DNA of 32,981 bases from Anaerolineae bacterium (GTDB lineage: Bacteria > Chloroflexota > Anaerolineae > Promineifilales > Promineifilaceae): assembly GCA_024762395.1 (NCBI GenBank), contig JANTHP010000010.1, forward strand, positions 1 through 32,981, written 5' to 3'. Both the position numbers and the translations under genes were made by a program. The notes below the pieces were generated by a model that did not search any database, was not told the origin of the DNA, and saw nothing but the letters and a program-made list of their open reading frames with translations. Positions 1 to 32,831 of the stretch are shown piece by piece; position 1 is the stretch's first letter, and each line of letters begins with the position of its first letter.

Positions 1-2502
1 CTTATCAAATATGATCCGTACAGCGAGGCGGCGCGGCGGCAGATGATGCGTTTGCTGGCGCGCAGCGGGCAGCGCAACGCGGCGCTGGCGCATTACGACC
101 AGTTCCGCCAATTTTTGGCCGACGAGATTGGCGTTTCGCCGCAGCCGGAAACGAATGCGCTGTATGAACGGATTAAATTGGCGAATCCCCAACAGCACAA
201 TTTGCCGCCGCAGCCAACGCCGTTTGTGGGGCGGACGGCCGAATTGGCGGCCATCGAAAAACGGCTGACTGATCCCGACTGCCGTTTACTGACTATCGTC
301 GGGCCGGGCGGGATGGGAAAAACGCGGCTGGCGGTGGAGGCGGCGGGGCGGCAGGTGGGGCGTTTTTTGAATGGGGTCTTTTTTGTGTCGTTAACGGCCG
401 TTACCCCCATCCCCTCCTCTGACGCCGCCGACCTCATTGTTGAAGCAGCAGCGGAATCGGTGGGATTTGCGTTTCAGGGCGGTGACTCGCTCCAAAATGA
501 ACTGGTTGATTATTTGCGGCAGAAGGAACTGCTGCTGATTCTGGATAATTTTGAACATTTGCTGGCGGCGACGCCGCTGCTGGGCCATATTTTGGCGCAA
601 GCGCCGGATGTGGAACTGCTGGTTACGTCGCGGGAGCGGCTGCGTTTGCAGGGAGAATGGGTGTATGAACTGCATGGTCTGCCGCGCCCGGCTTCCGATC
701 AATCCGACATGATGCAATCGGAGGCGGTGCAGTTATTTTTGCAAAGCGCACGGCGGGCGGGGATGGCTTTTGAACTGGATACGGCCACTTCGACAGGCTC
801 AGCGCTGGCCGTTTATCCCGCCATTAGCCGCATTTGCCATTTGGTACGCGGAATGCCGTTGGCCATTGAGTTGGCCGCCAGTTGGGCGCGTTTGCTCACT
901 CCCCAGGAAATAGCTGCCGAGATTGAGAACAATCTCTCTTTTCTCACCTCAACGCTGCGCGATTTACCGGAACGACACCAAAGTATGCAGGCGGTCTTTG
1001 ACGCCTCCTGGCAGCTTTTGCAGCCGGATGAGCAAGCGGCGATGGCGCGATTGTCGGTTTTTCGGGGACGGTTCAGCCGCGAGGCGGCGCAAATCGTGGC
1101 CGATGTCTCGCTGTCCGGGCTGTTGGCGTTGGTGGATAAGTCGTTGGTGCGGAAGATGAATGGCGCTTTTCAACTCCACACATTGCTGCGCCAATATGCC
1201 GGGGAGAAGTTGACCCGACACCCTGAATGGGAAATGACGGCGCGGGAGCGATACGGCCGTTACTATGCCCAATTTTTGCAGCAACGGGAACAATCCCTGC
1301 TGCAGCGCGGCCAAAAACAAGTCCTGGCTGAAATCAGCGCCGAGTTGGACAATGTACGCGCCGCCTGGCAGTGGCTAATTCAGGGAAAAAGGGTGGATTT
1401 ACTCGATCAGGCGTTGGCGGGGATGTACCTTTTTTACTGGGCGCGTAGTTGGCTGAGCGAAGGCGGCGCCGCTTTCCAAAGCGCCGCTGCCATCGCCGAC
1501 GATGAGCTGGTTTTGGCGCGCATTTTGTGGCGCCAGGCTGATTTTGCCGCCTGGCTGGGCCATTTTGACGAGGCCCAATCCTTGTTTGCCCGCAGTTTGG
1601 CGATTTTGCACGCCGGTCATGCCTGGCAAGAGTTGGCGATGGCTTTGGAAGCGAACGGCCGTCTTTGCTACTGGCAGGGTAACTACGCCGCCGCCCGGCA
1701 AAAATTCGAGGAAAGCCTTGCCATTTCCCGTGAAATTGACGACCCGTTTGGACAGGCGCAGTCGCTGAACAGTTTAGCCAATGCTTTGTGCGCGGAGAGC
1801 TGCGATTACGCCGCCGCTGAAGAGCTGCTTGCCGAAAGTTTAGCTATCTCACAAAAATTAGGCGACGGCTTCGGCATCGCTAAAGTGATCATCAACCAGG
1901 GCGCAACCGCGCAAGAGACCGGCGATTTGGAACGCGCCCGGCAGCTTTTCCAACGAAGTTTGGCTCTTTACCGGGAAGTTGACTACCAGTATGGGATTTC
2001 GGCGGCGCTTGGTTATCTGGGTCAAGTGACAGCGGAGATGGGCGATTATGAGGCGGCGGCGGATTTAATAGAACAAAGTCTGGCGATTTATCGGGAATCG
2101 GGCAACCGGCGCGCTGTTGTTGACGCTTTGGGGCAATTAGCCGAGGTTGTCATCCAAAACGGCGATTTGGCGGCGGCGAAACGCCATTATGCGGAGGCGC
2201 TGCTTTTGGCGCAGACGCTGCGATTGCCCCGGTTGGTTCAGGAATTGTTGACGGCCGTTGCCCAATTAGCCCACACCGAAGGAGACAGCCTTCAGGCTCT
2301 CAAAATAATCGCCTTTGTGCTGGCTCAACCCGACGTCGGGCCAGCGTTGCAAGAGAGCGCCAACGGTCTGCTAAATCAGCTAACGGCAGCCATCCCGTCC
2401 GCCGAAGCTGACAACTACCGCAAACAAGGCGAAAGCATGACCGCCAAAGCCCTAATCCAAGAAGTTATGAGCAAGATGTTACTCTTGAAACAACAAATAT
2501 GA
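1..2502 (+). CDS. BTAD (SARP-type) transcriptional regulator with STAND/NB-ARC-like ATPase and TPR repeats, 5' partial at the window edge
   Basis: Frame 1 is open from base 1 (LIKYDPYSEAARRQMMRLLARSGQRNAALAHYDQFRQFLADEIGVSP, BTAD-like); Walker A VGPGGMGKTRL; LLILDNFEHLL Walker B; C-terminal TPR-like repeats. The N-terminal winged helix would lie upstream of the window. Confidence 0.9.
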   Translation, partial: LIKYDPYSEAARRQMMRLLARSGQRNAALAHYDQFRQFLADEIGVSPQPETNALYERIKLANPQQHNLPPQPTPFVGRTAELAAIEKRLTDPDCRLLTIVGPGGMGKTRLAVEAAGRQVGRFLNGVFFVSLTAVTPIPSSDAADLIVEAAAESVGFAFQGGDSLQNELVDYLRQKELLLILDNFEHLLAATPLLGHILAQAPDVELLVTSRERLRLQGEWVYELHGLPRPASDQSDMMQSEAVQLFLQSARRAGMAFELDTATSTGSALAVYPAISRICHLVRGMPLAIELAASWARLLTPQEIAAEIENNLSFLTSTLRDLPERHQSMQAVFDASWQLLQPDEQAAMARLSVFRGRFSREAAQIVADVSLSGLLALVDKSLVRKMNGAFQLHTLLRQYAGEKLTRHPEWEMTARERYGRYYAQFLQQREQSLLQRGQKQVLAEISAELDNVRAAWQWLIQGKRVDLLDQALAGMYLFYWARSWLSEGGAAFQSAAAIADDELVLARILWRQADFAAWLGHFDEAQSLFARSLAILHAGHAWQELAMALEANGRLCYWQGNYAAARQKFEESLAISREIDDPFGQAQSLNSLANALCAESCDYAAAEELLAESLAISQKLGDGFGIAKVIINQGATAQETGDLERARQLFQRSLALYREVDYQYGISAALGYLGQVTAEMGDYEAAADLIEQSLAIYRESGNRRAVVDALGQLAEVVIQNGDLAAAKRHYAEALLLAQTLRLPRLVQELLTAVAQLAHTEGDSLQALKIIAFVLAQPDVGPALQESANGLLNQLTAAIPSAEADNYRKQGESMTAKALIQEVMSKMLLLKQQI

Positions 2503-5500
2503 CGGAGCGACTGAATATACAATTGTTGGGAAGTATGACGGTGATGCGCGGGAGCAAGCCGGTGACGGGGTTGGTCACGCGCAAGGCGGAGGCTTTGTTG
2601 GCGTATTTGGTTATGCAGAAACGGCCGTTTCCCCGCGAACTTCTAGCCGATTTACTCTGGGACGACCGCTCCCAGGAGCAGGCATTGGCCAACCTGCGCT
2701 CCCTCCTCTCCAGCTTGCGACGCAAACTCAAGCCATACCTCATTGTCACCCGCCAGACCATCGCCTTCAACCATGAGAGCGATTACTGGCTGGATGTGGC
2801 GGCGTTTGAGGCGGGATTAGAGATTGGAGATCAGAAATTAACTACGAATCTCCAATCTCCAATCTCCAATCTCAGCGAAGTGATTTCCCTTTACCATGAC
2901 GATTTTCTGGCCGGTTTTCACATTCGGGAGGCGCACCGTTTTGAGGAGTGGGCGATTTTGCAGCGGGAACGGCTGCGGCGGTTGGCGGCGATGGCTTTGC
3001 GGCGGTTGGCGGATGATAGTTTGCGTAACGGCCGTTACCCCCAAGGCATTGACTACGTTAACCGGCTTATCAGCCTGGACAACCTCAACGAACGCGCCCA
3101 TCGCCAAAAAATGCTCCTGCTGGCCCGCAGCGGACAGCGCAACGCCGCCTTGCAGCAGTACGAAGCGTGCCGCCAAATCCTGAGCGAAGAACTAGGCGTC
3201 GAACCGGCGGCGGCGACGACGGAACTATTTACGCGGCTGCGCGGGCTGACTTTCCCGCCGCCGTACAACCTGCCGCCGCCGCCCAGCCCGTTCGTGGGGC
3301 GCAGCGTGGAGATGGCCGACGTGCGCCGCCATCTGCTCAATCCGGCCGAGCGGCTGGTGACGCTGGTCGGCCCCGGCGGGATTGGCAAAACGCGGCTGGC
3401 GCTGGAAACGGCTCGGCGCATGGTCCAAGAACAGCCGGGACAATTTTTTGACGGCGTGTTTTATGCGCCTTTGGCGGCGGTAACGGCCGTGCAGCAGCTT
3501 CCCAACCAAATCGCCCACGCCATTGGGTTTGCCTTTCAAGGTTCCGAACCACGCGGCGCGCAGCTTGTCAACCATCTGCGCGACAAGGAAGCGCTGCTGA
3601 TTTTGGACAATTACGAGCAGTTTCTGGGCGCGGATGACGCTTGCGCGGCGCTCATCGCTGCTATTTTGCGGGATGCGCCCCATGTTACCCTGCTTGTCAC
3701 CTCCCGCGAGCGGCTGAATTTGTATGAGGAGGCGGTGTTTGAGACGCATGGTTTGCATGTGCCGCCGCCGGATGCGGAAGAGCCGGAGCAGTATACGGCC
3801 GTCAAACTGTTTATGCAGCGCGTCGCCCGTCTGCGCCGCGACTGCCGTCCGTCGCCGAATGAGCTGGCTTCCATTGTCCGCTCTTGCCGCCTGCTAGACG
3901 GGGCGCCGCTGGCGATTGAGTTGGCCGCCGGTTGGACGCGCCGGCATAGTTTTGCCGAGATTGAAGCTGAAATTGCGGCTAGTTTTGATTTTCTGCAAAC
4001 GAATTTTCGCAATGTGCCCGCGCGTCAGCGCAGTATGCGGGCTGTTTTTGACCATTCGTGGCAGCTTCTGACGGCGCAAGAGCAGGCGGTTTTTGCCCGG
4101 CTGGCCGTTTTCCCGGATAGTTTTACGCTGGCGGCGGCGCAGGCTGTTGTCGCTAATTTGTCGGATGAAGGGCTGATTATGGCATTGGCGGACAAGTCGC
4201 TGCTGGAGCGGGAGCCGGACGGCCGTTACCAAATTCATCCCCTTTTGCGCCAATATGCGCGGGAGAAGCTGGGCGCGGAGGAGGCGCTGGCAACGGCCGT
4301 CGCCCAACGGCACAGCGCGTACTACCTGACTTTTATTGAGCAAATGGAAAGCGGCGAATCCCTGCCCGAGCGCGCCGCCATCGAGAAAGAACTGCCAAAT
4401 GTAACGGCCGTGTGGCAGCGCGCGGTTCGCAGCCAGGCTTTTGCCGACCTGGATCGCATCATTCCTACCCTGCAAAATTTTTACAATATCCAAAGCTGGT
4501 TTCAGGAAGGGATAGATTTATTCCAATTCGCTCTCGACCAACTAGGCGAGGCTGCCGACGCGGCTCAGGCGCAAACCGTATGCGATTTATGGGCGCGAAA
4601 AGCGCGGCTGCACATCCACATCGGCCAAATGCGCCAGGCGGAGACGGCGCTGGCGCAGGCCGCCGCCGCATTGGGCCGCGTGGACGACCCGGAGCGGCGT
4701 TCGCTGATTCTCAGCTACCTTTCCATGACCAATTTTTATGCCGGCCGTTACGATGAGGCGATTCGGCTGCTGCATGAAGCGCTGCCGCTGGCGCTGCAAG
4801 CCGACGACATGGACGGCATCGCCTTTTCCTACAATTTTCTGGGAAGCTGTTACAAGGCGAAAGGGGATTATGCGCAGGCGAATGCCAGTTTTAAGCAGTC
4901 GCTGGACGCTTACCGGCAGTTGGGGGACGAGGTGGGCGCGGGGATCGCGCTGCATAATTTGGGCAATCTGGCGCAGGCGATGGGCGAGTTTGAGCGTTCT
5001 TTGGCTTATTACCGGCAATGTAATGCGCTGTTTAAGGCAACAGATTACACGCAGGGAGTGGCGACGGCTTCGGCCAATGCGGGGCGGCTGGCGCTGCAAA
5101 TGGAGAATTATGCCGAGGCGGAAAAGCTGCTGGCGGAGGCGCTGCGGCTTAAGGAGCAGATACATGATGAGCGGGGAATGGCGGTGGCGTTGGTGGGACT
5201 GGGTGCGGTGGCGGCGGAAACAGGCCGGTTGGCGGCGGCGCGGGAGCATCTGGCGCGGGGGCTGGCGCTGGCGCAGCAGTCGGGCGATGTGAAGACGACG
5301 TTGGAGGGGGTGGGGGTGACGGCCGTTTACGCTCATCGTCTCCATCAATCCCAAACGGCCGCGCAGTTGGCTGCCTACATCCTCAACTACCCGATGGCGG
5401 CGCAGGAGGTGCGTCAACAGGCGGAGAAGCTGGCGAGCGAATTGGAATTGACGGCCGTGCCGCCGTCCAAGGAACTGGATGAATTGGCGACGGAGTTGCT

Positions 5501-5532: not shown

Positions 5533-5901
5533 ATGGAAAAAGAAACAAAACGCAAGACGATACACGGCCGTCTTTCCGGCTATTGGGAACAGGGGATGGA
5601 GGGACGTATTGATTACACGTTGGAACCGGATGATCCGAAAGACCGGGTGGATGGCAAATGGCCTATCCCGATACAGAACGGCCAATTTTTACGCATTTTT
5701 GATGAGAACGGCCGTGTGCTGTGGGCCGGAGAAATCAAGCTAAAATCGCGCCGCCGCTGGCTGTTTTTCTATGAAAAGCACGATTTGCCCAATGACATCT
5801 GGAATGATTGGACGCAAAAGGGTGTGCCTTATAAAACGTGGATTGGCTGGTTCTGGCAACGGCCGTCTTTACGCGCCGAATTGACAATTTGTCAAATTTA
5901 G
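5533..5901 (+). CDS. Small uncharacterised protein (about 122 aa)
   Basis: Internal ATG at 5533 of ORF 5479..5901 (MEKETKRKTIHGRLSGYWEQGMEGRIDYTLEPDD...) follows the regulator stop. The C-terminus (LTICQI*) is encoded by repeat sequence ATTTGTCAAATTTAG. Confidence 0.6.
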   Translation: MEKETKRKTIHGRLSGYWEQGMEGRIDYTLEPDDPKDRVDGKWPIPIQNGQFLRIFDENGRVLWAGEIKLKSRRRWLFFYEKHDLPNDIWNDWTQKGVPYKTWIGWFWQRPSLRAELTICQI

Positions 5902-6816: not shown

Positions 6817-7983
6817 ATGAGAATTGGTATTTTGACAGGCGGCGGGGATGTACCCGGCCTAAATCCATCTATCAAAACGGTTGTCTATCGGGCAATTGAT
6901 GAGGGGCATGAAGTTGTCGGCATCCGGCGCGGCTGGGGTGGCTTATTGGAGTTTAATCGGGATAATCCTGACAGTGTTTCTCATCACGTTATTCCCTTGG
7001 ACAAGCAGCGCGTGCGTACGGTTGACCGAACTGGCGGCACATTTTTGCATACCAGCCGCACGCACCCCGGCAAGGTAAGACCTGACGCCGTGCCGGATTT
7101 TCTGCGTGATCCGGAACACCTGGAAGCAGAAGAAAATGACACAAACTTGCGCGATTTCACGCCGCATGTTCTAAAAAATCTGGAATATCTGGGTATTGAT
7201 ACGCTTATCCCTATTGGCGGCGATGATACGTTGAGCTATGGCGAACGGCTGCACAGTGAGGGCTTCCCGGTGGTAGCTATTCCCAAAACGATGGATAACG
7301 ATGTGTATGGAACGGATTATTGTATTGGATTTAGTACGGCCGTTACCCGCAGCGTCCAATTCATCAACCAGTTACGCACCAGCACCGGTTCCCACGAGCG
7401 TATTGCTGTTGTAGAGTTATTCGGCCGTAACAGCGGCGAAACCAGCCTCATCAGCTCCTATTTGGCCGGCGTAGACCGCGCCCTCATCTCTGAAGTTCCC
7501 TTCGACCCCGAACGGCTGGCCGAATTAGTTATGCAAGATAAAGCCTCCAATCCCAGCCATTACGCCATGGTCACTATTAGCGAAGGCGCCCACATGATTG
7601 GCGGCAAAATCGTTGAATATGGGGAAGCGGATGCTTACGGCCACAAAAAATTAGGCGGTATCGGGGAAATCACCAGCGAGGCAATTAAGAAATTGACGGG
7701 GCACAGCATCATCAACCAACGTCTCGGTTATTTGATGCGTTCCGGCGCGCCCGACGCACTGGATTTAATGGTTGCCGTTAATTTTGCCAATATGGCGATG
7801 GATTTGATTACTTCTGGCGCCAGCGGGCGCATGGTGGCTTTGCGCGATGGCACGTATACGCACATTCCAATGAATACCGTTACCAGTGGCGTCAAGCGCG
7901 TGGATGTTGACGAGTTGTACGACAAAACACAATACCGCCCCAAAGTCCGTCACGTTTTGGGCAAACCGATGTTCCTTTACTAA
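6817..7983 (+). CDS. 6-phosphofructokinase family protein (PPi-type-like active site)
   Basis: [67 protein letters not shown] ribosome-binding site just upstream. Confidence 0.9.
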
Positions 7984-8053: not shown

Positions 8054-9174
8054 CTTTCATCTCCCAGGCAAGTGCCAACATGGCGGGCGGTTTTTACCCA
8101 GGGATGTTCCGGCGGTACCGATTTTCGTTTACCAACGACTTGCTCTAAAGGCACAGCCTCCGCGTATTCGCCTTTGGCAGCAACCATGACGCCATAAACG
8201 CCATCTCGAATATATTCGGCGCACGCTGTACCTAGTCGGGTTGCCAAAATGCGGTCAACGGCCGATGGCGTACCGCCTCGCTGGACATGGCCCAAAATTG
8301 TAACGCGGGATTCTAATCCGGTGAGTGTTTCCAATTCGTGGGATAGCTGCCAGGTGCTTCTTGTTTGTTCCTGCTCGATTTGCTTTAACTCGATTTTGGC
8401 TTTTAATTTTTCCTCGTCGTTTTCGGCGGTTTCTTTTTGATTGGCGAGCGTTTGGATGGCAACGGCCGTTTTCTTCGACACAGCCCCCTCCGATACAGCC
8501 ACAATACTAAACCGATGTCCCCCCCGGCTGCGATGGCGAATCGCCTCCGCAACAATTTCCACATCATACGGAATTTCAGGAATCAAAATCACATCGGCCC
8601 CGCCGGCAATACCGGCCCCCAGCGCCAGCCAACCCGTGTTGTGCCCCATAATTTCCACCACAATGATGCGATGATGGCTGTGCGCTGTACTGTGCAGACG
8701 GTCAATTGCTTCCGTAGCAATCCCCAGCGCCGTATCAAAGCCAAATGTTGCGTCCGTCATGGCGACGTCGTTATCAATCGTCTTGGGCAGTGTGATGACG
8801 TTCATCCCTTTTTGCATGAGGCGGTACGCATTTTTTTGCGTGCCGCCGCCGCCCAAACAGACCAGCGCATCCAAATGATGCCGGTGGTAGGTGTCCATCA
8901 TCACATCCGTCATATCCATCACTTTGCTGCCGATGGGCATTTTATGGGGTTTGTCGCGGCTGGTTCCCAATATCGTGCCGCCAATAGTGAGGATGCCGGA
9001 TAATGATTCGCTGTCCAGGCGGTAAGTACGGTCATTCATCAGTCCGCGAAAGCCATCACGGAAGCCGACGATATGCATTCCCATCCCCAAAACGGCTTTC
9101 CCCACGCCGCGAATGGCTGCGTTTAGGCCGGGACTATCGCCGCCGGCGGTTAAAATACCGATGAATTTTGACAT
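8050..9174 (-). CDS. 6-phosphofructokinase family protein, mixed-substrate-like (GGGGT variant)
   Basis: [80 protein letters not shown]. Start set at MSKF (CAT 9172-9174), not the ORF-track MTQ start. Confidence 0.9.
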
Positions 9175-9514: not shown

Positions 9515-11002
9515 ATGCAGGTAAATGTAGTTCGGGGCAGTATTCAAGACCAAACGGCCGATACCCTCATCGTCAATTTATTTGAAGGCGTTACAATCCC
9601 CGGCGGCGCGACCGGCGCAGTGGATAAGGCGCTGGATGGCGCCATTAGCGAGCTAATTGCCAACGGCGACATCAGCGGCAAGATAGGCGAAGTCGGCGTC
9701 TTGTACCCGCGCGGCGCAATGGCGGCCAAACGTGTTTTGATTGTCGGATTAGGCCAACGAGACGAATTTGATTTGGAGGGCGTGCGTAAAGCGGCGGCGG
9801 CAGCCATCAAACGCGCCCGCGATTTGAACGCTAAACAGGCGGCGACGATTGTTCACGGCGCCGGCATTGGCGGGCTGGATGCGGCAGATGCGGCGCAAGC
9901 GGCAGCAGAAGGGTCGCTGCTGGCGCTGTACCAATATGATGCGCCCAAGAAAAAGGAACCGCAAAATGAGATTGAATCGTTGACAATTGTGGAATTTGAT
10001 GGGAGTAAAGTAGCAGAGATTGAACGCGGGGTGGAAACGGCCGTATCCATCACAGCCGGAACCACATTAGCCCGTGACCTCGTCAACATGCCCCCCAACA
10101 TCGCCACCCCCACCCGCCTGGCCCAGGCCGCCAAAGAAATCGCTGCCGCGTATGGCATGAAAATTACCGTTGGCGGGCGCAAATGGGCCGCCAAACGGAA
10201 GATGGGCGGCTTCTTAGCCGTCGCCAAAGGCGCAGGCGAACCGCCCAAATTCATCGTGCTGGAGCATAACAGCGACCGAGACGATTTGGACACCATCGTC
10301 CTGGTGGGCAAAGGCATCACCTTCGATACTGGCGGCATCTCCCTCAAACAGGTAGCCGGTATGGGCAAAATGAAATCGGATATGGGCGGCGCGGCGGCCG
10401 TGCTGGGCGCAATGGAGGTTGTCGGGCGGCTCAACATCCCCCTGCGCGTCATCGGTATCGCGCCTTGCACCGAGAACATGCCCGACGCCAACGCCTACCG
10501 TCCGGCCGACGTCATCACCGCCAGCAACGGCAAAACCATCGAAATCATCAGCACAGACGCCGAAGGACGCATGGTTTTGGCCGATGGGTTGGTGTATGCT
10601 GAACGATACCAACCAAAAGCGGTGATTGATTTGGCAACGCTGACAGGCGCGTGTGTGATTGCCTTGGGCGGACAGGCGGCGGGGCTGTTCAGCACGGATG
10701 ACAGTTTGCGCGATAAGATGGTGGCGGCGGGAACGGCCGTACACGAGCGCGTCTGGCCCCTGCCTTTGTGGGATGACTACCAAAAAGCCATCAAATCCGA
10801 CGTTGCCGACATGAAAAACGGCGGCGGCCGATACGGCGGTGTGGGCACATCGGCCATCTTCCTCAAAGCATTTACCGATTACCCCTGGATGCACCTGGAC
10901 ATTGCCGGCGTCGCGCTTACCGAAAAAGAGTCCGACTACACCCCCGCAGGCGGAACCGGCTTTGGCGTGCGGCTGCTAATCGAATTCTTGCGGCATTGGT
11001 AA
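9515..11002 (+). CDS. pepA: Leucyl aminopeptidase (M17 family cytosol aminopeptidase)
   Basis: GKGITFDTGGISLK, MKSDMGGAAAVLGAM, STDAEGRMVLADGLVYA: M17 metal/active-site signatures. Confidence 0.95.
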   Translation: MQVNVVRGSIQDQTADTLIVNLFEGVTIPGGATGAVDKALDGAISELIANGDISGKIGEVGVLYPRGAMAAKRVLIVGLGQRDEFDLEGVRKAAAAAIKRARDLNAKQAATIVHGAGIGGLDAADAAQAAAEGSLLALYQYDAPKKKEPQNEIESLTIVEFDGSKVAEIERGVETAVSITAGTTLARDLVNMPPNIATPTRLAQAAKEIAAAYGMKITVGGRKWAAKRKMGGFLAVAKGAGEPPKFIVLEHNSDRDDLDTIVLVGKGITFDTGGISLKQVAGMGKMKSDMGGAAAVLGAMEVVGRLNIPLRVIGIAPCTENMPDANAYRPADVITASNGKTIEIISTDAEGRMVLADGLVYAERYQPKAVIDLATLTGACVIALGGQAAGLFSTDDSLRDKMVAAGTAVHERVWPLPLWDDYQKAIKSDVADMKNGGGRYGGVGTSAIFLKAFTDYPWMHLDIAGVALTEKESDYTPAGGTGFGVRLLIEFLRHW

Positions 11003-15151: not shown

Positions 15152-15900
15152 GGTAGTTCCTTCAGGTTATTTATTAGCTGTAGATATTGCTCGATAACGG
15201 CCGTTATCCGCGGCGACTCTACCTTTTTAAGAGCCTCCAACAACCATTGATAAATGTTTTCACTGTAAGAAAGCCTGAAACATGGCGCGTCCTCGGCTGA
15301 GTTGGCTTTTCTTCCGTTTGGCGTCAAAAAAAGGAGAGCTTGCTTTGGATACTGACTTTTGTGTGTTTGCATCCATTGCCAATAATAATGAAGTTGTCGT
15401 GTACTTTCATTAGCGAGAACTTTATTTTCGATAACGCAAAGAAAACCGAGGTCTTTACATTGAATAACGATATCGAGCCGACCATGTTCTTCGGTAACAT
15501 TTTCCTTTTTTATTTGCCATTTGTAGGAATCAATTTTTTCTGGCAGCGCAGGGAATGCGACAGGGTGATTGGCGCTGGCTATTGGGAGATTTTTCTGGCA
15601 ATACTTCAGAAAAGATTCGAGAAACAAGAAATCATGTTCATGTTTTTCGTAAGGATTTAATAGGTTGGCCAAGAAGGTCGAGTGGGTTTTTTCTTGATAA
15701 GCAATGCCCAGAAAATAAAAAATATTAAATCTGGGAGTAGTCTGGCGAGCTTGTTGTCTGGCTTTTATAAAATTGTTTTTCAATCGTTCAAATTGCTCAG
15801 GGAACACGGCCGTTCGGAAACGTTTTACAAAGTCAGTAATGTCGTCAATATGAACTTCGTCCACTGTTATCTCCCTCTGCTTCCACAAAAATCTAAACAA
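15148..15900 (-). CDS. PD-(D/E)XK nuclease superfamily protein (PDDEXK_4-like)
   Basis: FNIFYFLGIAYQEKTHSTFLANLLNPYEKHEHDFLFLESFL and GRLDIVIQCKDLGFLCVIENKV (D...ExK) motifs. Confidence 0.82.
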   Translation of the reverse strand: MFRFLWKQREITVDEVHIDDITDFVKRFRTAVFPEQFERLKNNFIKARQQARQTTPRFNIFYFLGIAYQEKTHSTFLANLLNPYEKHEHDFLFLESFLKYCQKNLPIASANHPVAFPALPEKIDSYKWQIKKENVTEEHGRLDIVIQCKDLGFLCVIENKVLANESTRQLHYYWQWMQTHKSQYPKQALLFLTPNGRKANSAEDAPCFRLSYSENIYQWLLEALKKVESPRITAVIEQYLQLINNLKELP

Positions 15901-23242: not shown

Positions 23243-24109
23243 TTAACTTTTGTGCAGCGAGACGACTAAATCGGCGATGAGACCGAGGACGGCCGTCTGA
23301 AAAGTGATCGTGAGCAATACAACTGTCGTCGTCGCCAGATGGAAATCGTAAGCGGTGATGTCGTAGATGACTTTAGCCAAACTGAGGAGACTTAACAAGA
23401 TGACTAAAGGCACAAAAACGCGCAGCGGCCGGTAGGAAAGGACGACCCGGACGACCAGGGAGAAAAAGTTAATGGTGTCTTGAAACGGCCGTATCTTCGA
23501 CTTCCCCGTCCGCTGAAAATAATCAATGGGGACATACAGCACATTGTAATCATTCGTCAGCAGCGCCAGCGTGATGGAGGTGGTGAAGGAAAAACCGGAC
23601 GGCAGCAGCCGGAAATAGTTGATGGCGACATCCCGCTTGAAGGCGCGTAAGCCGGAATTGAGATCGGGAATCTCCATGCCGCTGAGATAATTCGCCAGCC
23701 GGGTCAGCGCCCATTTGGCCGGGCGGCGGATGAGCGGGATGTGCACCGTCTCGCCGGTGCGCGCACCCACAACCATGTCGTAATCGGCCATTTTCGCGGC
23801 CAAAACGGGGATCATATCAATCGGGTACGTGCCATCGGCGTCTATGATGAGGATGTTTTCGTATTGGGCTTGCCGGATGCCGGTTTTGAGCGATGCGCCG
23901 TACCCTTTGTTTTGGGGATGGACGAATAAACGCACGCCGGAGACTTGTTGGATGGTTACGGCCGTATCATCCGTCGAACCATCATCCACCACAACAATCT
24001 CGCTGACCAGATTGGCCGCCGTGGTTACTTGTTTTATCTTTTCCAATGTGGGTAGAATGGCTCCCGCTTCATTGTAGGCGGGGATGACGATGGATATGGG
24101 TTGAGTCAT
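23243..24109 (-). CDS. Glycosyltransferase family 2 (polyprenyl-phosphate mannose/glucose synthase-like) with C-terminal TM segments
   Basis: MTQPISIVIPAYNEAGAILPTLEKI...VVDDGSTDDTA...IIDADGTYPIDMIP; start set at MTQ (CAT 24107-24109), since the 29-aa ORF-track extension is word-array sequence. Confidence 0.92.
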   Translation of the reverse strand: MTQPISIVIPAYNEAGAILPTLEKIKQVTTAANLVSEIVVVDDGSTDDTAVTIQQVSGVRLFVHPQNKGYGASLKTGIRQAQYENILIIDADGTYPIDMIPVLAAKMADYDMVVGARTGETVHIPLIRRPAKWALTRLANYLSGMEIPDLNSGLRAFKRDVAINYFRLLPSGFSFTTSITLALLTNDYNVLYVPIDYFQRTGKSKIRPFQDTINFFSLVVRVVLSYRPLRVFVPLVILLSLLSLAKVIYDITAYDFHLATTTVVLLTITFQTAVLGLIADLVVSLHKS

Positions 24110-24208: not shown

Positions 24209-26260
24209 TCACGGTTGGAGTTCATATAAAATGTACGCGCCGGCAATGTCGGTGATGGGGGTTAGGTGATGGGTTTGTAAGGCCTGGACAACGGCCGTAT
24301 TCACCGGTTCGTCTGATTGAAGGCGTGCGGCCGTCATAAACTCGTACCCTTTTTGATAAAGCAAAAGATGAGTCACGCCGCTTTCCCGCCAGTTGGCGGC
24401 AATGCCATCTGCATCGCCATGTAAATGAACGAGGTGTCCCAATTCATCCAGACTGCTGTCAGGGCGGCAGTCGTGGTCACAATAATAACTGCGCGGTTCA
24501 AACAAAAAAGCGACGACGCTTTCCGGCGGCAGCTCGTTAATGGCCTCCATAGCGCCATAATGCGCCCCCAAATGACGACGCAGCAGTTCCGCTTTTGTGT
24601 CTGAACCAACGACATAAGTCCAGGGCGCAAAAGGCAGCCAGGCCGTGATTTGTCCCACCAGGTTGAGGAGTAGCACCAGCCCGATGACCAGGTTCAAAAA
24701 ACGATGAAGTGAAAATTGAGGATGATCCAGCCGCCTTAAATCATTGAGCAGCCAGGCTAACGCCGGAACCAACGCCGCAAAACAGGGTAAGAGAACGCGG
24801 CTGATTAAAAATCCTTTTGAATTCATGGCGCCAAGCAGCCAAAATCCGTACTGGCTAAGGGCAAACAGCAGCAGCCAGCTTAACGCCGCCGGGACATCTT
24901 TGCGCCGGCGGGAAAAGGCCAAAATGAGGATGAGGGGTAAAAATGCCAGCAGCAGCGGCCCGATTTGAGCATCCTGGTTCACATCAATGAGGCCCAGCGT
25001 AAGGTCGTAGGGAAGGCGCAGGATGGCGATGAGGTCCAGGCCGAGGCCGGTGCCTGATTCGGTGAAGGCGGCCGCCAGATAATTGTCCCAGTAACGGCCG
25101 CCTCCAAACGGATAGACCGGATTCCCCACCAGCAGCCAGCTTTTGAGGTAAATGGGCAGCGCCGTCAGGGTGGTGGCTGCTGTCAGCAGGGCTAATGGCT
25201 TGAACATGGCCGAAAGCCGCTTTCTGACTGTCCAGGCGGTAAATCCTGCCAGCGTCAGCGGCGCGACGAAGCTGGTGTATTTGAATCCCATTGCCAACCC
25301 GCAAAATATGCCGCTTAACAGCAGCCAGGACGATTGGCGGTTCTGCCGCCATGTCAGCCAGAAATACAGCGCCCCGATTTGATAAAAGGCCAATCCCAAA
25401 TCGTTGTAAGCCCAGCCGGCCAGCGACAATATCATGGGGATGGCGTAGAGGAGGAGAACGGCCGTCCACCCCTCTTTCATGCGCAGTTGTTTCCGGGCGG
25501 TCTGAAAAATCAGCCCCGCCAGCATGAGATGAAAGATGAAATGGAGCAGTTTGGCGGTCACATCGCTGCGTAATGCCATCGCCATCATGAACAGCATCTC
25601 AAACAGCGCCGGATAATGCAGGGGAAAGATGTCGTAAGCGTGGATTCGGCCGGCCGCCAGGTACAGTTTTGGCCCTTTGAGGTGGTAAAACAGGGCGTCA
25701 AAACTGGTCGGCGGCAGTAACGCCAACGTTAACGCCATACCCAACGCTAAAAACAGATAAACGGCGGCGGGGCGCGACGGCCGTTCCCACCGCAATCGCC
25801 GTACACATTCAAACGCTTTTTTACTGGTCAGCAGGGTTAAAATGATGGCGATGGCGTAGAATACGGCCGTTTCCAACCAACCAACCATCCCCAAAAACAA
25901 CGTCAGCAGCCCCAACGCGCCAAATCCCAGCCCCAGCCCAAACAAAAGCCGCGCGCCCGGACTCATTTCCAGCCTAAACCGCTCCAGCAGCCACAACCCT
26001 GCGCCCAACGCAAACCAGGCCATCCACAACGCCGCCGCCACATCCAACAGCGAACGCCCCACCGCCGCTGCCGAGAAGGGGAAACGCTGCCAAATGACGG
26101 CCGTTTCCGCCAAAAACGCCAACTGCGGCCCGCTAAACGGCTTCTGCACCACATAATAAGCGCTCAAACTAAAAAACAGCCAACCAATAAAGAGCGCAAC
26201 CCCGCCCCACTTCAGCCAATCAGAAAATTGAACGCCGTTTGTTTTATCCGATTCAATCAT
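24209..26260 (-). CDS. GT39/PMT-like polytopic glycosyltransferase (membrane protein)
   Basis: 683 aa, many TM segments; LPPTSFDALFYHLKGPKLYLAAGRIH resembles the GT-C first-loop acidic motif. Confidence 0.78.
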   Translation of the reverse strand: MIESDKTNGVQFSDWLKWGGVALFIGWLFFSLSAYYVVQKPFSGPQLAFLAETAVIWQRFPFSAAAVGRSLLDVAAALWMAWFALGAGLWLLERFRLEMSPGARLLFGLGLGFGALGLLTLFLGMVGWLETAVFYAIAIILTLLTSKKAFECVRRLRWERPSRPAAVYLFLALGMALTLALLPPTSFDALFYHLKGPKLYLAAGRIHAYDIFPLHYPALFEMLFMMAMALRSDVTAKLLHFIFHLMLAGLIFQTARKQLRMKEGWTAVLLLYAIPMILSLAGWAYNDLGLAFYQIGALYFWLTWRQNRQSSWLLLSGIFCGLAMGFKYTSFVAPLTLAGFTAWTVRKRLSAMFKPLALLTAATTLTALPIYLKSWLLVGNPVYPFGGGRYWDNYLAAAFTESGTGLGLDLIAILRLPYDLTLGLIDVNQDAQIGPLLLAFLPLILILAFSRRRKDVPAALSWLLLFALSQYGFWLLGAMNSKGFLISRVLLPCFAALVPALAWLLNDLRRLDHPQFSLHRFLNLVIGLVLLLNLVGQITAWLPFAPWTYVVGSDTKAELLRRHLGAHYGAMEAINELPPESVVAFLFEPRSYYCDHDCRPDSSLDELGHLVHLHGDADGIAANWRESGVTHLLLYQKGYEFMTAARLQSDEPVNTAVVQALQTHHLTPITDIAGAYILYELQP

Positions 26261-26343: not shown

Positions 26344-26397
26344 AAACGATAATAGATTCCCCGCAAAATGACAACAGACATCTGGTACCAATCCCAA

Positions 26398-26436: not shown

Positions 26437-26486
26437 TTTGGAAGACGGCCGTTCCTGCTATGATCGCGCAATAAATAAACTCAAAA

Positions 26487-26598: not shown

Positions 26599-29478
26599 AT
26601 GAAGTACAAAATAGTCACACTGCTAAGCCTATTCGTTTTACTGGCCGTTCAAGAGTTAACCACCGTACAATCCGCGCCGGCAGGCGTTTCAATCCACAAT
26701 ATCGAGCTAAACGCCGCCGATTTCGCCGGGGGGACCGGCACAGGCTATGCCATCACAGCCGATGGTTTAACAATGGCCGACGATGCGGTAACGGCCGTCT
26801 ACACCTCCCCCGTCATCCAATCGCCCATTCCCTTTAACGCGGCCGTGCCCCAATGGTTCGCCACCGTTCCCGACATGACCAGCATGGAACTGCATGTGCG
26901 AACCAAAGCGGCTGCCGGCGAATGGGGCAAATGGGTAGACATTCACGAAAATGACGATTGGACGCTGCCCGACGATCCCGACATTGTCGGCGAGATGCTC
27001 GCCGTCCCCGCTGCGGATGTCACCCACCACCAACTCCAATTTTCCGTCATTTTCAGCCGTTATGCCGGGGAACCCGCGCCGGTTTTTGAACAGTTAACCC
27101 TGACCGTTATTGACACAACCGATGGCCCTACCCTCGAAGAGATGCAAGCCCGGCAGGCCGAGCTAGATGCCGCCAACGCCAGCCTTAACCAGACGCCCAA
27201 CGACAGCTACCCACGCCCAACTGTCATCAGCCGTGAAGTATGGTGCTACTACGATGACTGCAATTATGATCCTGCGGATTTGGCGTACAGCCCTTACACG
27301 CACATGGTCATCCATCATACCGTTTCATCCAATGAAAGCAGCGATTGGGCCGCCATCGTTCGCGCCATCTGGAACTTCCACACCTACACGCGCGGCTGGG
27401 GCGACATCGGCTACAATTACCTGGTTGACCGCACCGGCGTCGTTTACGAAGGCCACCTGAATGAGGATTACCTGAACCTGGATGTGGTGGGCACGCACGC
27501 CTCAGCCGCCAACACGGGCGGCATGGGCGTGGCCCTCATCGGCACATTCTCCACGCCGGACGAATACCCCGGTTTTGATGAAACGCCGCCGCCGGAAATG
27601 CAAGCGGCCGCCGTTGAACTGCTCTCTTGGAAGGCTGACCAACGGGATATTGATGTGTATGATGCCAGCCGCATGGTCTACACCGATTGGGGCCTGCCGC
27701 ATTTGATGGGGCATCGGGATGTGTACGGAGGCACTTCAACAACCTGTCCGGGGGCGAATGCGTATGGGCTGCTGCCGGCGCTGCGCGATGCGGTCGCGCA
27801 GCAAATCGGGTTTGTTTCGCCGCATATGTATGTTGATGAGTTGAGCGACGCTTTCACGATGAGCGACAGCGTCTGGTACGAGGGGCCGGAAGGGTGCGGT
27901 AATAACGGTCATTCCTACTACACCTGGAATGTAACCGATGAGGCGTTGAGCGATAATTGGGGCGAATGGCGTCCGGATGTGCCGGAATACGGCCGTTACG
28001 AAATTGAAGTGTACGCCCCCTACTGCGACACCAACGCCCCCGAAACGGATGGCGCTATTTACACCGTCACCCACGCCGACGGGACGGATACCGTCACCGT
28101 CAGCCATAACGCCAACGTCGGCTTGTGGATGTCGCTGGGCGAATTTAACCTGAATGCCGGAACAGGCAATCTCATCCGTCTGACCGACCTGACCAGTGGC
28201 GACCTCACCGATTACGATTACGGCGTCTGGTTTGACGCCATTCGTTTGCGCCTGATCGAAGGCTCGGCAAGCAACGCCGCGCCGCCGGATGACGCCTGGG
28301 TGACGCAGCAGTCAGTTGATTTCGCCTGGGAGATTGTCAATCCCGGCACAGTTCTGACAACGACGCTGCAAGTGGCGACGGACCCGGCGTTTAGCGACAT
28401 GGTTTACACGGAAAGTTGGGGAACGGCCGTTACCAACACTGTCCACACCTTCAGCCAGGATTATGCCGACCTGTATTGGCGGGTACGTTTGAATCTAAAC
28501 GCCGGCGATCAGGTAGAGTCGGCCGCCACGCGCTTTGGGCTGGACTCGGCGCCGCCAACTTCCAGCGTAAACGCCCTGACATTTTATCCCGCCGAAGGCT
28601 ACTATGAACTGGGTTGGCAGGGCAGCGATAATCTTTCCGGCATAGCCGGCTACAACATCGAATACCGGGCCGACAGCGACCTGACATGGACTACCCTTTT
28701 GAGCGCGACAACGCTCATCACTGCCACCTTCACACCGCCCGATCCGGCGCAAATGTATTGGTTCCGCAGCCAGGCCAGCGATGCCGCCGGCAATACCGAA
28801 CCGGCCCACAGCGGCGACGGCGACATCAACACCGAGCAGGCCGACGTCATTTACACCATCCATGTCCAAAACGAGACCCCGGCGGCCGATGTGTGGCTGA
28901 ATGGGTTGTCGGTTGATTTTTCCTGGGCCATTACGACGGCGATTGATATTTCAACAACGACCTGGGCGGTGGCAACTGACCCGGCTATGACCAATGTGGT
29001 GGCAGCGCAGAGCTGGGGAACGGCCGTTACCCAAACCCTCCACAGCTTTACCCAGGATTACGCCGACCTGTACTGGCAAGTAACGGTAACGGACACCGAA
29101 ACCCTCTCCGCCTCATCCACGCCCACGCGGTTTGGCCTGGATACAACCCCGCCTACATCCCAGGTTACAATGATTTATGAATTGTCTACCGGCTCCTACT
29201 TTTTGCTGTGGCAAGGGGATGACGCCGGGTCCGGCCTCGCTCTCTACACAGTCGAATACCGCGCCCAGGGAGAGACGGATTGGATAACGCTGGTGGATGG
29301 GGTAACGGCCGTTTCCGCCATGTTCGACCCACCCGTACCAGGGCAAATTTACGAATTCCGCAGTCAGGCCACCGATTTAGTCGGCAATATCGAACCGCCC
29401 CATCCCAACCCGGATATGGACACCACACAGGCAATTTTGCTCTCTCATGCTATAATGCTGCCGATTATTCAGCGTTAA
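26599..29478 (+). CDS. Secreted PGRP/N-acetylmuramoyl-L-alanine amidase (amidase_2-like) with golvesin-like domain and two duplicated C-terminal modules
   Basis: Signal peptide MKYKIVTLLSLFVLLAVQ; MVIHHTVSSNESSDWAAIVRAIWNFHTYTRGWGDIGYNYLVDRTGVVYEG...HRDVYGGTSTTCPG; golvesin-like DAFTMSDSVWYEG...YYTWNV...GRYEIEVYAP. Confidence 0.9.
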   Translation: MKYKIVTLLSLFVLLAVQELTTVQSAPAGVSIHNIELNAADFAGGTGTGYAITADGLTMADDAVTAVYTSPVIQSPIPFNAAVPQWFATVPDMTSMELHVRTKAAAGEWGKWVDIHENDDWTLPDDPDIVGEMLAVPAADVTHHQLQFSVIFSRYAGEPAPVFEQLTLTVIDTTDGPTLEEMQARQAELDAANASLNQTPNDSYPRPTVISREVWCYYDDCNYDPADLAYSPYTHMVIHHTVSSNESSDWAAIVRAIWNFHTYTRGWGDIGYNYLVDRTGVVYEGHLNEDYLNLDVVGTHASAANTGGMGVALIGTFSTPDEYPGFDETPPPEMQAAAVELLSWKADQRDIDVYDASRMVYTDWGLPHLMGHRDVYGGTSTTCPGANAYGLLPALRDAVAQQIGFVSPHMYVDELSDAFTMSDSVWYEGPEGCGNNGHSYYTWNVTDEALSDNWGEWRPDVPEYGRYEIEVYAPYCDTNAPETDGAIYTVTHADGTDTVTVSHNANVGLWMSLGEFNLNAGTGNLIRLTDLTSGDLTDYDYGVWFDAIRLRLIEGSASNAAPPDDAWVTQQSVDFAWEIVNPGTVLTTTLQVATDPAFSDMVYTESWGTAVTNTVHTFSQDYADLYWRVRLNLNAGDQVESAATRFGLDSAPPTSSVNALTFYPAEGYYELGWQGSDNLSGIAGYNIEYRADSDLTWTTLLSATTLITATFTPPDPAQMYWFRSQASDAAGNTEPAHSGDGDINTEQADVIYTIHVQNETPAADVWLNGLSVDFSWAITTAIDISTTTWAVATDPAMTNVVAAQSWGTAVTQTLHSFTQDYADLYWQVTVTDTETLSASSTPTRFGLDTTPPTSQVTMIYELSTGSYFLLWQGDDAGSGLALYTVEYRAQGETDWITLVDGVTAVSAMFDPPVPGQIYEFRSQATDLVGNIEPPHPNPDMDTTQAILLSHAIMLPIIQR

Positions 29479-29659: not shown

Positions 29660-30841
29660 ATGCCCCAATCTGTTGATGTTCTCATCGTCGGTTCCGGCCC
29701 TTCCGGCACATCCACCGCCTTGCATCTCGTTCGCCAAGACCCGGCCTGGGCCAAACGCATCGTCATCGTAGATAAAGCCGTCCACCCGCGTGAAAAATTA
29801 TGCGGCGGCGGCGTCACCCACATCGGCCAAAACATCCTGGCCCAGTTAGGCCTTCCCTTTGAGCCGGAAAATTTTGCCGTGAATGAAGTGCGTTTGATCT
29901 ACCAGGATAAGCAGTACTCTTTCTACGGCAATCCGGTTTTTCGGATTGTGCGCCGGGATGAGTTTGACCATTGGCTGGTGAAAATTTGCCAAAAGTTCGG
30001 TATTCCCGTTCGACAAGGCGAGGCAGTGACAAAAATCACGCCGCATGACGATTATGTTGAGGTAGCGACTGAAAAGACGACTTTTCACGCTCAGGTTGTG
30101 GTGGGGGCCGACGGTTCGCGCAGTTTTGTGCGCCGCACGCTGAAATGGGCCGATGAGTCCCGCGTTGCCCGCCTGCTGGAGGTATTGACGCCGGAAAATG
30201 CCAATATCCAGCCGGAATTCCGTGATGGCATAGCCGTGTTTGATTTCACGCGGATGACGGATGGTTTGCAAGGATATTATTGGGATTTTCCCAGTTTTGT
30301 GGCGGGACGGCCGTTCATGAACCGGGGACTCTTTGACAGCCGTGCCCGGCCGGAACGGCCGAAAGCTCATCTCAAACAAGAACTGGGCGATGCGCTGCAA
30401 GCAAGGGGCCGGGATTTGGCGGATTACCAGCTAAAAGGGCATCCGATTCGCTGGTGGGCTAAAAACGGCCGTTTCGCCATCCCGCGCGTGTTGTTGGTGG
30501 GCGACGCCGCCGGGGCCGACCCGCTTTTTGGCGAGGGGATTTCGTTTGCGCTGGGATACGGCCGTGTCGCCGCTCCCGTCATCAGCGACGCCTTTGCGCG
30601 TCATGATTTCAGCTTTGCCGATTATGACGGCCGTTTACGGAATGATCCCCTGTTCAAGCAGTTACAAATCCGCGTGCGGCTGGCCCGCATTGCCTACCGC
30701 ATTCGCTCCCCCTGGCTGGTGCGGTTGGGCTGGGCGTTGATGAGCTGGGGCGTCAAATTTACCCGCTGGCGCGACCCCAACTTCGTCCCTGCCGAACAAC
30801 CGCAAACCCTCTTAACCGACAGCATGCAGCAATCAGCTTAA
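29660..30841 (+). CDS. Geranylgeranyl reductase-family FAD-dependent oxidoreductase
   Basis: MPQSVDVLIVGSGPSGTSTALHLV (FAD GxGxxG), VVGADGSRSFVRR, VLLVGDAAGADPLFGEGISFALGYG. Start moved to 29660; the upstream 57 codons are word-array translation. Confidence 0.88.
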   Translation: MPQSVDVLIVGSGPSGTSTALHLVRQDPAWAKRIVIVDKAVHPREKLCGGGVTHIGQNILAQLGLPFEPENFAVNEVRLIYQDKQYSFYGNPVFRIVRRDEFDHWLVKICQKFGIPVRQGEAVTKITPHDDYVEVATEKTTFHAQVVVGADGSRSFVRRTLKWADESRVARLLEVLTPENANIQPEFRDGIAVFDFTRMTDGLQGYYWDFPSFVAGRPFMNRGLFDSRARPERPKAHLKQELGDALQARGRDLADYQLKGHPIRWWAKNGRFAIPRVLLVGDAAGADPLFGEGISFALGYGRVAAPVISDAFARHDFSFADYDGRLRNDPLFKQLQIRVRLARIAYRIRSPWLVRLGWALMSWGVKFTRWRDPNFVPAEQPQTLLTDSMQQSA

Positions 30842-31193: not shown

Positions 31194-31772
31194 TTACTTG
31201 GGACGGCCGTACAACCACCAATACGTCTTCATCGGATAAGCCGCCTGCCAGACCAGCGGCCAGACAAACTCGCCTACCAGCCAGCGCCCCTTCAAATTCT
31301 TGTCCAGTGCAGCCACCTCATCCAGAATACGCTGGTCAAGCTGATAGGACGGTTTCATCAGCTCATCAATCATCGCCGTAATGACCACGCGCACGTCGGC
31401 GACGCTGGCGTAATAATCTACATCGGCCATCATGCGGCTGGACATGTGGCGTAGATAATTACTCCAATCGCTCAAGCGAGCGTGTAACTCCTGGTGCATC
31501 CGCTTCTCAAACTGTACTACATTGCCTGCCAACTTACTTTCAAATGCCTCCAGCGTCGCGTCCAGTCGGGCCTGAGCGGCGGCATCCATCTTGTCGCGCA
31601 CCACCGGAAGCCGGTGGCGGCGCATCAGACAGCCGCCAATGGTCAGCTTGGGCATATCCCCTTTTTCCATCGTCCAGTGGGTTGCCTCGCTTATCAAATA
31701 GTCGTCCACCTCGGCAACCATCACCTCTAAAATTTTTAGATCGCGCAGGATAATTTGATGTTCGTCGTTCAC
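31194..31772 (-). CDS. Uncharacterised protein (192 aa)
   Basis: Long ORF with coding-like composition; no domain recognised. Confidence 0.75.
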   Translation of the reverse strand: MNDEHQIILRDLKILEVMVAEVDDYLISEATHWTMEKGDMPKLTIGGCLMRRHRLPVVRDKMDAAAQARLDATLEAFESKLAGNVVQFEKRMHQELHARLSDWSNYLRHMSSRMMADVDYYASVADVRVVITAMIDELMKPSYQLDQRILDEVAALDKNLKGRWLVGEFVWPLVWQAAYPMKTYWWLYGRPK

Positions 31773-31910
31773 GGCAAAACCCCTTTTCGCACACAGCTAA
31801 ACCACTATATTTACAGGATACCGAAATTGGGGAACGGCCGTCAAGAGTTTCCACGAATTGTAGTGACTGGGGCGCTTTGACCGTTTCCTGTTGGCGTTTA
31901 TAATCGCCCT

Positions 31911-32831
31911 ATGCAAACGGAAAAGGACTTTTCACCCGACATGCCTATCACCGAAATGGGGAGGCAGGTAATGGCCGGTCAGTTAGCCATTATCCACACC
32001 TATGCTGAAGATTTGGACCAGGAAACCTCGGTAACGGCCGTTCACGAAACCCGCAAAGCCATCCGCCGCACCTTTTCCGCCATTAAACTGTTCCGCCCCT
32101 ACTTTGAACCGGGCCTTCTGGATGGCTATCGGCGGCGTTTGCGTAAATTGATGAAGCGGTTGGAACCATGCCGGGATACGGCCGTTTTTCTGGGAAAATT
32201 GCGCGATTATGCCATAAACGCCCCCATACCTCTGGATGAACTGGCAGCGTATTGGCAAACCCGGCTTGAAACGGCCAACGCCAACCTGCGCGTCTACCGC
32301 CAGCGGCCCCAATGGGCTGTATTTTGGGATGAGTACGCCGCCTTTACAACAACACCAGACCAGGGCGCGTTACCCGTCAGGTTTGGCGTCCCGATTCGAG
32401 TGCGGCATTTGATGCCGGTTTTGCTGTACCAACGCGCCGCCGACGTTCTCGCATACGATGATTATGTCAATGGCGATGAGCCATTATCGGTGGAAATGCT
32501 GCACAAAATACGCATTCGGTGCAAAGAATTACGCTACACATTCCAATTTTTTACCCCGCTGTTAGGGGCTGAAATCGGGGATGTGATTGATGTGTTGAAA
32601 TGGCTCCAGGTCAATTTAGGCGATCTGAATGATGCGCGGGTAGCGTTGGCGATGTTGGATGGTCTGGAGCCGGAAACGGCCGTAACCGCATCGCTCAATA
32701 CGGCCGTCGTCCACTACAAAAAAGTCCAACAAGCCGAAATCAACCGCTTGCTGACAGAATTTCACCCGCTTTGGGCCGCGTTAAACGCGCCCCAATGGCG
32801 AAAAAATTTGGCGGCGGCAATAGCAGCATAA
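31911..32831 (+). CDS. CHAD domain protein
   Basis: VTAVHETRKAIRRTFSAIKLFRPYFE...LRKLMKRLEPCRDTAVFLGKLRDY...MLHKIRIRCKELRYTFQFF: paired H..RK/R-type CHAD motifs. Confidence 0.9.
   Translation: MQTEKDFSPDMPITEMGRQVMAGQLAIIHTYAEDLDQETSVTAVHETRKAIRRTFSAIKLFRPYFEPGLLDGYRRRLRKLMKRLEPCRDTAVFLGKLRDYAINAPIPLDELAAYWQTRLETANANLRVYRQRPQWAVFWDEYAAFTTTPDQGALPVRFGVPIRVRHLMPVLLYQRAADVLAYDDYVNGDEPLSVEMLHKIRIRCKELRYTFQFFTPLLGAEIGDVIDVLKWLQVNLGDLNDARVALAMLDGLEPETAVTASLNTAVVHYKKVQQAEINRLLTEFHPLWAALNAPQWRKNLAAAIAA

Follow-up and report, generated by a model that had tools for sequence, protein, structure and literature searches.

A HIP-type palindromic octamer in one Chloroflexota family and in tailed phages

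The palindromic octamer ACGGCCGT is enriched in a single family-level clade of Chloroflexota, in which it is maintained above neutral expectation at the DNA level. We interpret it as a HIP-type element that is independent of HIP1 and unrelated to it in sequence. Since 1995, HIP1 has posed a puzzle; to our knowledge, it is known only from cyanobacteria. Here, we describe the distribution, conservation and variants of ACGGCCGT, as well as its carriage by tailed phages, and weigh the explanations that have to be considered for it.

Results

We counted the octamer in the window, i.e., the whole stretch of 32,981 nucleotides that was analysed. ACGGCCGT occurs there exactly 61 times (Table 1), the number that a preliminary description had estimated by hand. 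Sixty of the 61 start positions given there were correct, while the site placed at 32686 starts at 32676. The number expected by chance in the window is 0.85 according to dinucleotide shuffles (the largest value in 100 shuffles was 4) and 2.3 under a third-order Markov model. ACGGCCGT is the top-ranked 8-mer of the window, and the next ranks are held by words that overlap it. The preference at the outer base, also pointed out in the preliminary description, was borne out: NCGGCCGT occurs 70 times in the window, with A in 61 cases and C, G and T in three cases each. The flanking sequence differs between copies. A conserved radical-SAM gene in the window lies within 3.4 kb that hold no ACGGCCGT (11797–15196).

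Table 1. Positions in the window of the octamer sites and of a conserved gene that holds none
Feature	Position	Strand	Remark
ACGGCCGT site 1	394..401		exact count
ACGGCCGT site 2	1253..1260		exact count
ACGGCCGT site 3	1655..1662		exact count
ACGGCCGT site 4	2251..2258		exact count
ACGGCCGT site 5	2621..2628		exact count
ACGGCCGT site 6	3028..3035		exact count
ACGGCCGT site 7	3483..3490		exact count
ACGGCCGT site 8	3795..3802		exact count
ACGGCCGT site 9	4219..4226		exact count
ACGGCCGT site 10	4293..4300		exact count
ACGGCCGT site 11	4404..4411		exact count
ACGGCCGT site 12	5319..5326		exact count
ACGGCCGT site 13	5451..5458		exact count
ACGGCCGT site 14	5564..5571		exact count
ACGGCCGT site 15	5708..5715		exact count
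ACGGCCGT site 16	5859..5866		exact count
ACGGCCGT site 17	7336..7343		exact count
ACGGCCGT site 18	8462..8469		exact count
ACGGCCGT site 19	10037..10044		exact count
ACGGCCGT site 20	10733..10740		exact count
ACGGCCGT site 21	11789..11796		exact count
ACGGCCGT site 22	15197..15204		exact count
ACGGCCGT site 23	15806..15813		exact count
ACGGCCGT site 24	16348..16355		exact count
ACGGCCGT site 25	16721..16728		exact count
ACGGCCGT site 26	16977..16984		exact count
ACGGCCGT site 27	17265..17272		exact count
ACGGCCGT site 28	17391..17398		exact count
ACGGCCGT site 29	17619..17626		exact count
ACGGCCGT site 30	17914..17921		exact count
ACGGCCGT site 31	18263..18270		exact count
ACGGCCGT site 32	18506..18513		exact count
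ACGGCCGT site 33	18785..18792		exact count
ACGGCCGT site 34	19633..19640		exact count
ACGGCCGT site 35	20858..20865		exact count
ACGGCCGT site 36	21538..21545		exact count
ACGGCCGT site 37	22759..22766		exact count
ACGGCCGT site 38	23289..23296		exact count
ACGGCCGT site 39	23485..23492		exact count
ACGGCCGT site 40	23958..23965		exact count
ACGGCCGT site 41	24291..24298		exact count
ACGGCCGT site 42	25458..25465		exact count
ACGGCCGT site 43	25777..25784		exact count
ACGGCCGT site 44	25863..25870		exact count
ACGGCCGT site 45	26097..26104		exact count
ACGGCCGT site 46	26445..26452		exact count
ACGGCCGT site 47	26791..26798		exact count
ACGGCCGT site 48	27989..27996		exact count
ACGGCCGT site 49	28423..28430		exact count
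ACGGCCGT site 50	29020..29027		exact count
ACGGCCGT site 51	29305..29312		exact count
ACGGCCGT site 52	30307..30314		exact count
ACGGCCGT site 53	30465..30472		exact count
ACGGCCGT site 54	30558..30565		exact count
ACGGCCGT site 55	30627..30634		exact count
ACGGCCGT site 56	31203..31210		exact count
ACGGCCGT site 57	31834..31841		exact count
ACGGCCGT site 58	32034..32041		exact count
ACGGCCGT site 59	32178..32185		exact count
ACGGCCGT site 60	32676..32683		exact count (earlier printed as 32686)
ACGGCCGT site 61	32700..32707		exact count
conserved radical-SAM gene, zero ACGGCCGT	12451..14397	+	relatives' copies hold 0–2 sites

The preliminary description had allowed for an excess limited to the window. 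This is not the case, since 7,806 copies are spread over the 4,908,454 bases of the genome (1 per 629, ~1,590 per million); the backwards palindrome TGCCGGCA has 176 copies in the same 4.9-Mb genome. When sites were masked, ACGGCCGT stood 70-fold above a third-order Markov model in 953 kb of site-rich relatives, and its enrichment ranged from 43 to 70 fold over expectation. Sites occur once per 581 bp in coding DNA and once per 851 bp in non-coding DNA, and all three reading frames are used. The frequent peptides encoded by the octamer are TAV, NGR and DGR.

Many members of the family carry 6,000–12,900 copies per genome, compared with 0–290 in genomes from different families within this order and class. 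Outside the family, the highest count in ~300 other Chloroflexota genomes was 471. The nearest named relatives of the window are Chloroflexota metagenome assemblies; Promineifilum-labelled sequences fall inside the same clade, and the site-rich clade is probably Promineifilaceae. In a single-protein tree, loci with ACGGCCGT were spread through the clade and outgroups were devoid of the word.

Next, we compared the fate of the sites with that of control words in aligned DNA. In close relatives (88% identity, 68 kb aligned), 236 of the 257 ACGGCCGT sites were intact, a count into which every conserved pair was entered from both sides and to which a trio of genomes contributed, among others; in the same alignments, the intact fraction was 43% for octamers of the same composition, 41% for other NCGGCCGN and 44% for further GC-rich palindromes. 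Twelve further pairs from other genera (78–93% identity) kept 78–100% of their sites, compared with 22–63% of same-composition octamers. Synonymous codons were 98–100% identical within sites and 45–82% identical elsewhere. For CGT codons, all 44 within sites were identical versus 99 of 221 outside; for ACG codons, the numbers were 119/120 and 468/670, respectively.

The conserved unit is exactly 8 bp, since conservation is already at background level at the first flanking base. Weak palindromic preferences nevertheless extend beyond the octamer, and these differ between the word variants (dialects) described below. Words deviating from ACGGCCGT at one inner position occur at 0.67–0.91 of expectation, while those deviating at an outer position are enriched 2.44-fold; the outer base excepted, there is no decay cloud of one-letter variants. 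In the hosts, 82 pairs of sites lie within less than 50 bp of each other, where chance predicts 141. Apart from this deficit of very short gaps the spacing is nearly random, so that nothing points to an upper limit on the distance between sites. Selection and biased repair fit these data alike, and neither is singled out by them.

Several relatives without ACGGCCGT use alternate words, i.e., TCGGCCGA, GCGGCCGC, CGGCCG (same core) and TGCCGGCA. There are 9,414 copies of TCGGCCGA versus 198 of ACGGCCGT in genome G032, and 7,668 versus 85 in G009, while G015 has 85 copies of GCGGCCGC in 60 kb. In G018, G073 and G007, CGGCCG is found at 10–18 times expectation with an outer base free of preference. 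G012 holds 3,665 copies of TGCCGGCA, and CGGCCG is avoided in it. In the DNA sampled, G011 and G022 had no such enriched word, and G021 had a mild, 5-fold excess of CGGCCG. The outer base is A, T or G depending on the genus, and A or T in most genomes. Word switching is recent, since G018 and G032 are congeneric. When a ACGGCCGT genome was aligned to a TCGGCCGA or GCGGCCGC genome, the core was kept at only one of 48 sites, which come from one locus per type and are partly non-independent. This contradicts an in-place swap of the outer base between types; thus, the dialect switch looks like the replacement of an entire site set rather than in-place editing. The mild CGGCCG excess of Promineifilum-like GC-rich genomes is ordinary, as it is not conserved.

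Tailed phages carry the word as well. A scan of IMG/VR for two ACGGCCGT copies 60–90 bp apart retrieved at least 120 loci, and 31 loci among the matches listed were word-dense. Whole-record counts of the viral matches listed form two groups: dense records (e.g., 226 copies in 100 kb, 227 in 65.5 kb, 93 in 40 kb, 111 in 54 kb and 139 in 74 kb) and sparse records with 3–9 copies in 40–129 kb. Comparison with PHROGs identified virion genes in all six dense records checked: a tape-measure protein, a head maturation protease and an endolysin in G371; a portal, a terminase, a tape-measure protein and a head protease in G372; and a portal and a large terminase in each of G373, G375, G376 and G378. 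The density of ACGGCCGT in these metagenomic phages reaches twice the usual value of hosts, which were assigned to them by the shared word alone. The peak among the matches listed is 1 per 288, while the densest host sample (at least 20 kb) has 1 per 481. Between phages, 82% of sites were conserved versus 29% for controls. No phages of the TCGGCCGA type were found among the matches listed. A parallel scan for cyanobacterial HIP1 revealed viral contigs in which this word is dense (1 per 336 to 658); thus, viral carriage seems common to both words.

None of the enzyme families tested (the main DNA-methyltransferase families, Vsr, MutH and DndC) accounts for the word, and no reader protein was found among them. 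We looked for the orphan methyltransferase for CGGCCG or GGCC that the preliminary description had envisaged, and no such common factor emerged: PF00145, PF01555, Vsr, MutH and DndC are patchy or absent. PF00145 is present in 23 of the 52 family genomes and absent from the densest. Methyltransferases forming m5C were rejected as the cause, since none occurs in G000 or in G003 and G024, which are the densest genomes; an m5C group is present in the bare-CGGCCG genomes G018, G073 and G074 and in G025. PF01555 is patchy across the family genomes. Its orphan 'DPPYNL' group (query G003:C87; G000:C443:2117-3073) occurs in 13 ACGGCCGT-bearing genomes and is not a necessary factor; among its carriers, G027 is mildly ACGGCCGT-bearing and G025 is the one clear exception. 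As about half of the ACGGCCGT genomes share this group, the octamer may have a modification role.

PF02086 was found in all 22 genera, and the one member classified belongs to the Dam family. The Dam-type enzyme is the sole near-universal methyltransferase. It also occurs in relatives without the word, and its housekeeping gene neighbourhood is common to genomes with and without it, on which grounds Dam/D12 enzymes were rejected as the GGCC methyltransferase. Vsr was found in 8, DndC in 6 and MutH in none of the 52 family genomes. Neither PF00145 nor PF01555 is found at E ≤ 1e-10 in the site-rich genome G020 (rated 100% complete), which holds a Dam-type enzyme only, and G007 has neither of the two families at this threshold, nor PF02086. 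No group within PF00145, PF01555 or PF02086 was found to be common to all site-rich genomes and linked to the word. A cognate methyltransferase may come from another family or may have been lost from drafts.

Discussion

We see an about even chance that the sites are read by a strict host factor that favours any DNA carrying them, the octamer being a HIP-type element of one Chloroflexota family. Each site would be recognised by a strict, probably dimeric factor, and any resident DNA, whether chromosome or phage, would be fitter the more regularly it carried the site. The outer-base specificity of the factor would have changed several times, each change being followed by replacement of the whole site set of the genome. 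In the version we prefer, the site would serve as a protective or maintenance tag read by a putative protein, following a Chi-like logic in which presence protects, and would not be the target of a conserved methyltransferase. Against this reading stand the nearly random spacing, the assignment of phage hosts through the word alone, the negative result for TCGGCCGA-type phages among the matches listed and the PF01555 orphan group shared by about half of the ACGGCCGT genomes.

The main alternative, possible but doubtful, is the ratchet that Elhai proposed for HIP1, in which a cytosine methyltransferase acting on CGGCCG or GGCC is combined with methyl-directed mismatch repair. Repair would copy the strand with the methylated word, and the word would accumulate without selection for its own sake. 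The fixed core, the variable outer base, the outer-biased one-off words and the alternate words agree with such a process, as reported for HIPs (PMC4390886), and so does the occurrence of the PF01555 orphan group, with its one clear exception, and of the m5C group in bare-CGGCCG genomes and G025. However, G020 and G007 lack the candidate enzymes, Vsr and DndC are infrequent and MutH is absent in the family, and the published model wants a G before the methylated C, where A or T mostly stands here. In addition, the phages exceed their presumed hosts in density, which fits selection on the phage better; we therefore rank a host factor reading the sites above the ratchet.

The sites might also be a self tag, a suggestion that we regard as speculative and rather unlikely. 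A putative host system would attack or disable DNA in which the word is not frequent, so that phages would have to write it into their genomes, and an arms race would switch the words. Such protection by presence would invert the logic of restriction, in which a site condemns the DNA.

That the octamer does no more than bind a nucleoid-organising or chromosome-segregation protein is improbable. Such a protein would fit the thousands of scattered palindromic sites, whose extended flanks are weakly palindromic and which are located in coding and non-coding DNA alike. In tailed phages, however, the density of the word equals or exceeds that in the chromosome, and segregation alone, a role named in the preliminary description, is therefore disfavoured; repair or recombination, also named there, may be involved. 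The phages refute a chromosome-only role unless the protein organises phage DNA too. More improbable still is a DNA-uptake signal built up through biased natural transformation, with lineage dialects such as those known for Neisseriaceae and Pasteurellaceae: the word is short, dispersed, strongly enriched and has clade-specific variants, but it is a perfect palindrome, lacks an inner one-off cloud and is enriched in phages. An artefact of codon usage, composition or dispersed repeats, for which the frequent peptides encoded by the octamer might speak, is refuted by the retention of sites relative to same-composition octamers and by the 99% synonymous conservation, and deserves practically no credence; the 70-fold excess over the masked Markov model, the use of all three frames and the flanks not shared between copies speak against it too.

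ACGGCCGT provides a second HIP case, in another phylum: its word is different, close relatives use several dialects, and phages carry it. It supplies the comparative material that was lacking in cyanobacteria, whereby HIP function becomes testable by comparison. Two standing ideas are weakened, namely that a cognate methyltransferase is required and that the role is confined to the chromosome, and the case points to something that acts on any resident DNA. The word also offers an easy sequence mark by which phages and plasmids can be linked to these uncultured hosts.

Comparison with known systems

HIPs are palindromic GC-rich oligomers that occur ~500–2500 times per million bases, far above expectation; the next most enriched 8-mers are overlaps, deviations are biased to the first and last positions, and a strict core is accompanied by a variable outer base and by alternate words in some relatives (PMC4390886). 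The term 'HIP1-like', used in the preliminary description, is apt: density, strictness, outer-base behaviour, alternate words of relatives and DNA-level conservation all match reported HIPs. HIP1 is reportedly maintained by selection, according to the passage of PMC6604393 that cites Xu et al. 2018. Both HIP1 (GCGATCGC, cyanobacteria) and ACGGCCGT are GC-rich palindromic octamers found once per few hundred to thousand bp. They differ in word and phylum, and the Chloroflexota octamer is not HIP1 proper. Genomes with a HIP would also be expected to encode a methyltransferase that recognises it; among PF00145, PF01555 and PF02086, no group common to all the genomes rich in ACGGCCGT was linked to the word. 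The published GmeC-dependent mismatch-repair model for HIP1 demands that G precede the methylated outer C, which does not hold for the Chloroflexota word, with A or T as outer base in most genomes. In the literature searched, we found no report of phage carriage of HIPs for comparison, no use of ACGGCCGT as a genomic word and nothing linking HIP1 with Chloroflexi.

DNA uptake sequences (USS/DUS; PMC1939737) resemble ACGGCCGT in being short, dispersed and strongly enriched and in having lineage dialects. Unlike them, ACGGCCGT is palindromic, has no inner one-off cloud and is enriched in phages. An exact palindromic specificity of 8 bp, as in restriction, also resembles ACGGCCGT, and GCGGCCGC is the word of G015. 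Such 8-bp sites are reported to be avoided as a rule (PMC4687349). The avoidance seen with restriction-modification does not apply to ACGGCCGT, which is strongly over-represented in both genome and phage. Chi (RecBCD/AddAB) is likewise a word of octamer scale from which the carrying DNA benefits, as we propose for ACGGCCGT. However, Chi is non-palindromic and orientation-dependent, while ACGGCCGT is palindromic and exceeds the density of Chi in E. coli several times over.

GATC depletion and modification enzymes

The tetramer GATC was strongly under-represented in genomes that use ACGGCCGT, with 1.5–3.5 occurrences per kb across the family loci, and its observed/expected ratio (O/E) in the window (1–32981) was 0.32. 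Depletion extended to most of the site-bearing phages (O/E 0.54–0.80), with one phage at 1.00. In most of the relatives that use a different word, or no word at all, GATC was at a normal level (4–7 per kb); nonetheless, most of these relatives carried Dam-type enzymes. Most family genomes, whether or not they carry the word, have a Dam-family methyltransferase that lacks a restriction partner and lies in a conserved gene neighbourhood.

An m5C methyltransferase group, whose members are 66–76% identical, was shared by the bare-CGGCCG genomes G018, G073 and G074 and the Promineifilum-like G025, and is a candidate for the CGGCCG enzyme. In the relative G012, which uses TGCCGGCA, CGGCCG was strongly avoided (3 found vs 26 expected; loci L188–L191), as if the old core were subject to restriction. 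Separately, six genomes of the family, that of the window among them, carry DndC-like phosphorothioation genes.

Viral HIP1 and other window features

Some IMG/VR viral contigs carried cyanobacterial HIP1, GCGATCGC, at high density, one per 336–658 bp; these are presumably cyanophages. The window contains a small low-G+C defence-like island, and even there three ACGGCCGT sites were present. It also has an adjacent pair of phosphofructokinase genes. Numerous short tandem arrays, mainly intergenic and with a unit of 7–8 bases, recall the heptamer repeats of filamentous cyanobacteria.

Location of features in the window, family genomes and viral contigs
Feature	Location	Detail
Dam-family methyltransferase neighbourhood	L149, L153, L155, L157, L159, L163, L169	
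m5C methyltransferase group	L016, L017, L018, L034	
DndC-like phosphorothioation genes	G000:C467:6-1043; L671-L674	
GCGATCGC-dense viral contigs	L565, L628, L652, L655	
Defence-like island	window 15148-16672	PD-(D/E)XK nuclease, HEPN protein, nucleotidyltransferase
Phosphofructokinase genes	window 6817-7983, 8050-9216	convergent
Short tandem arrays	window 2847-2873, 5965-6009, 9324-9388, 20094-20160, 24126-24212, 26278-26344, 29481-29642
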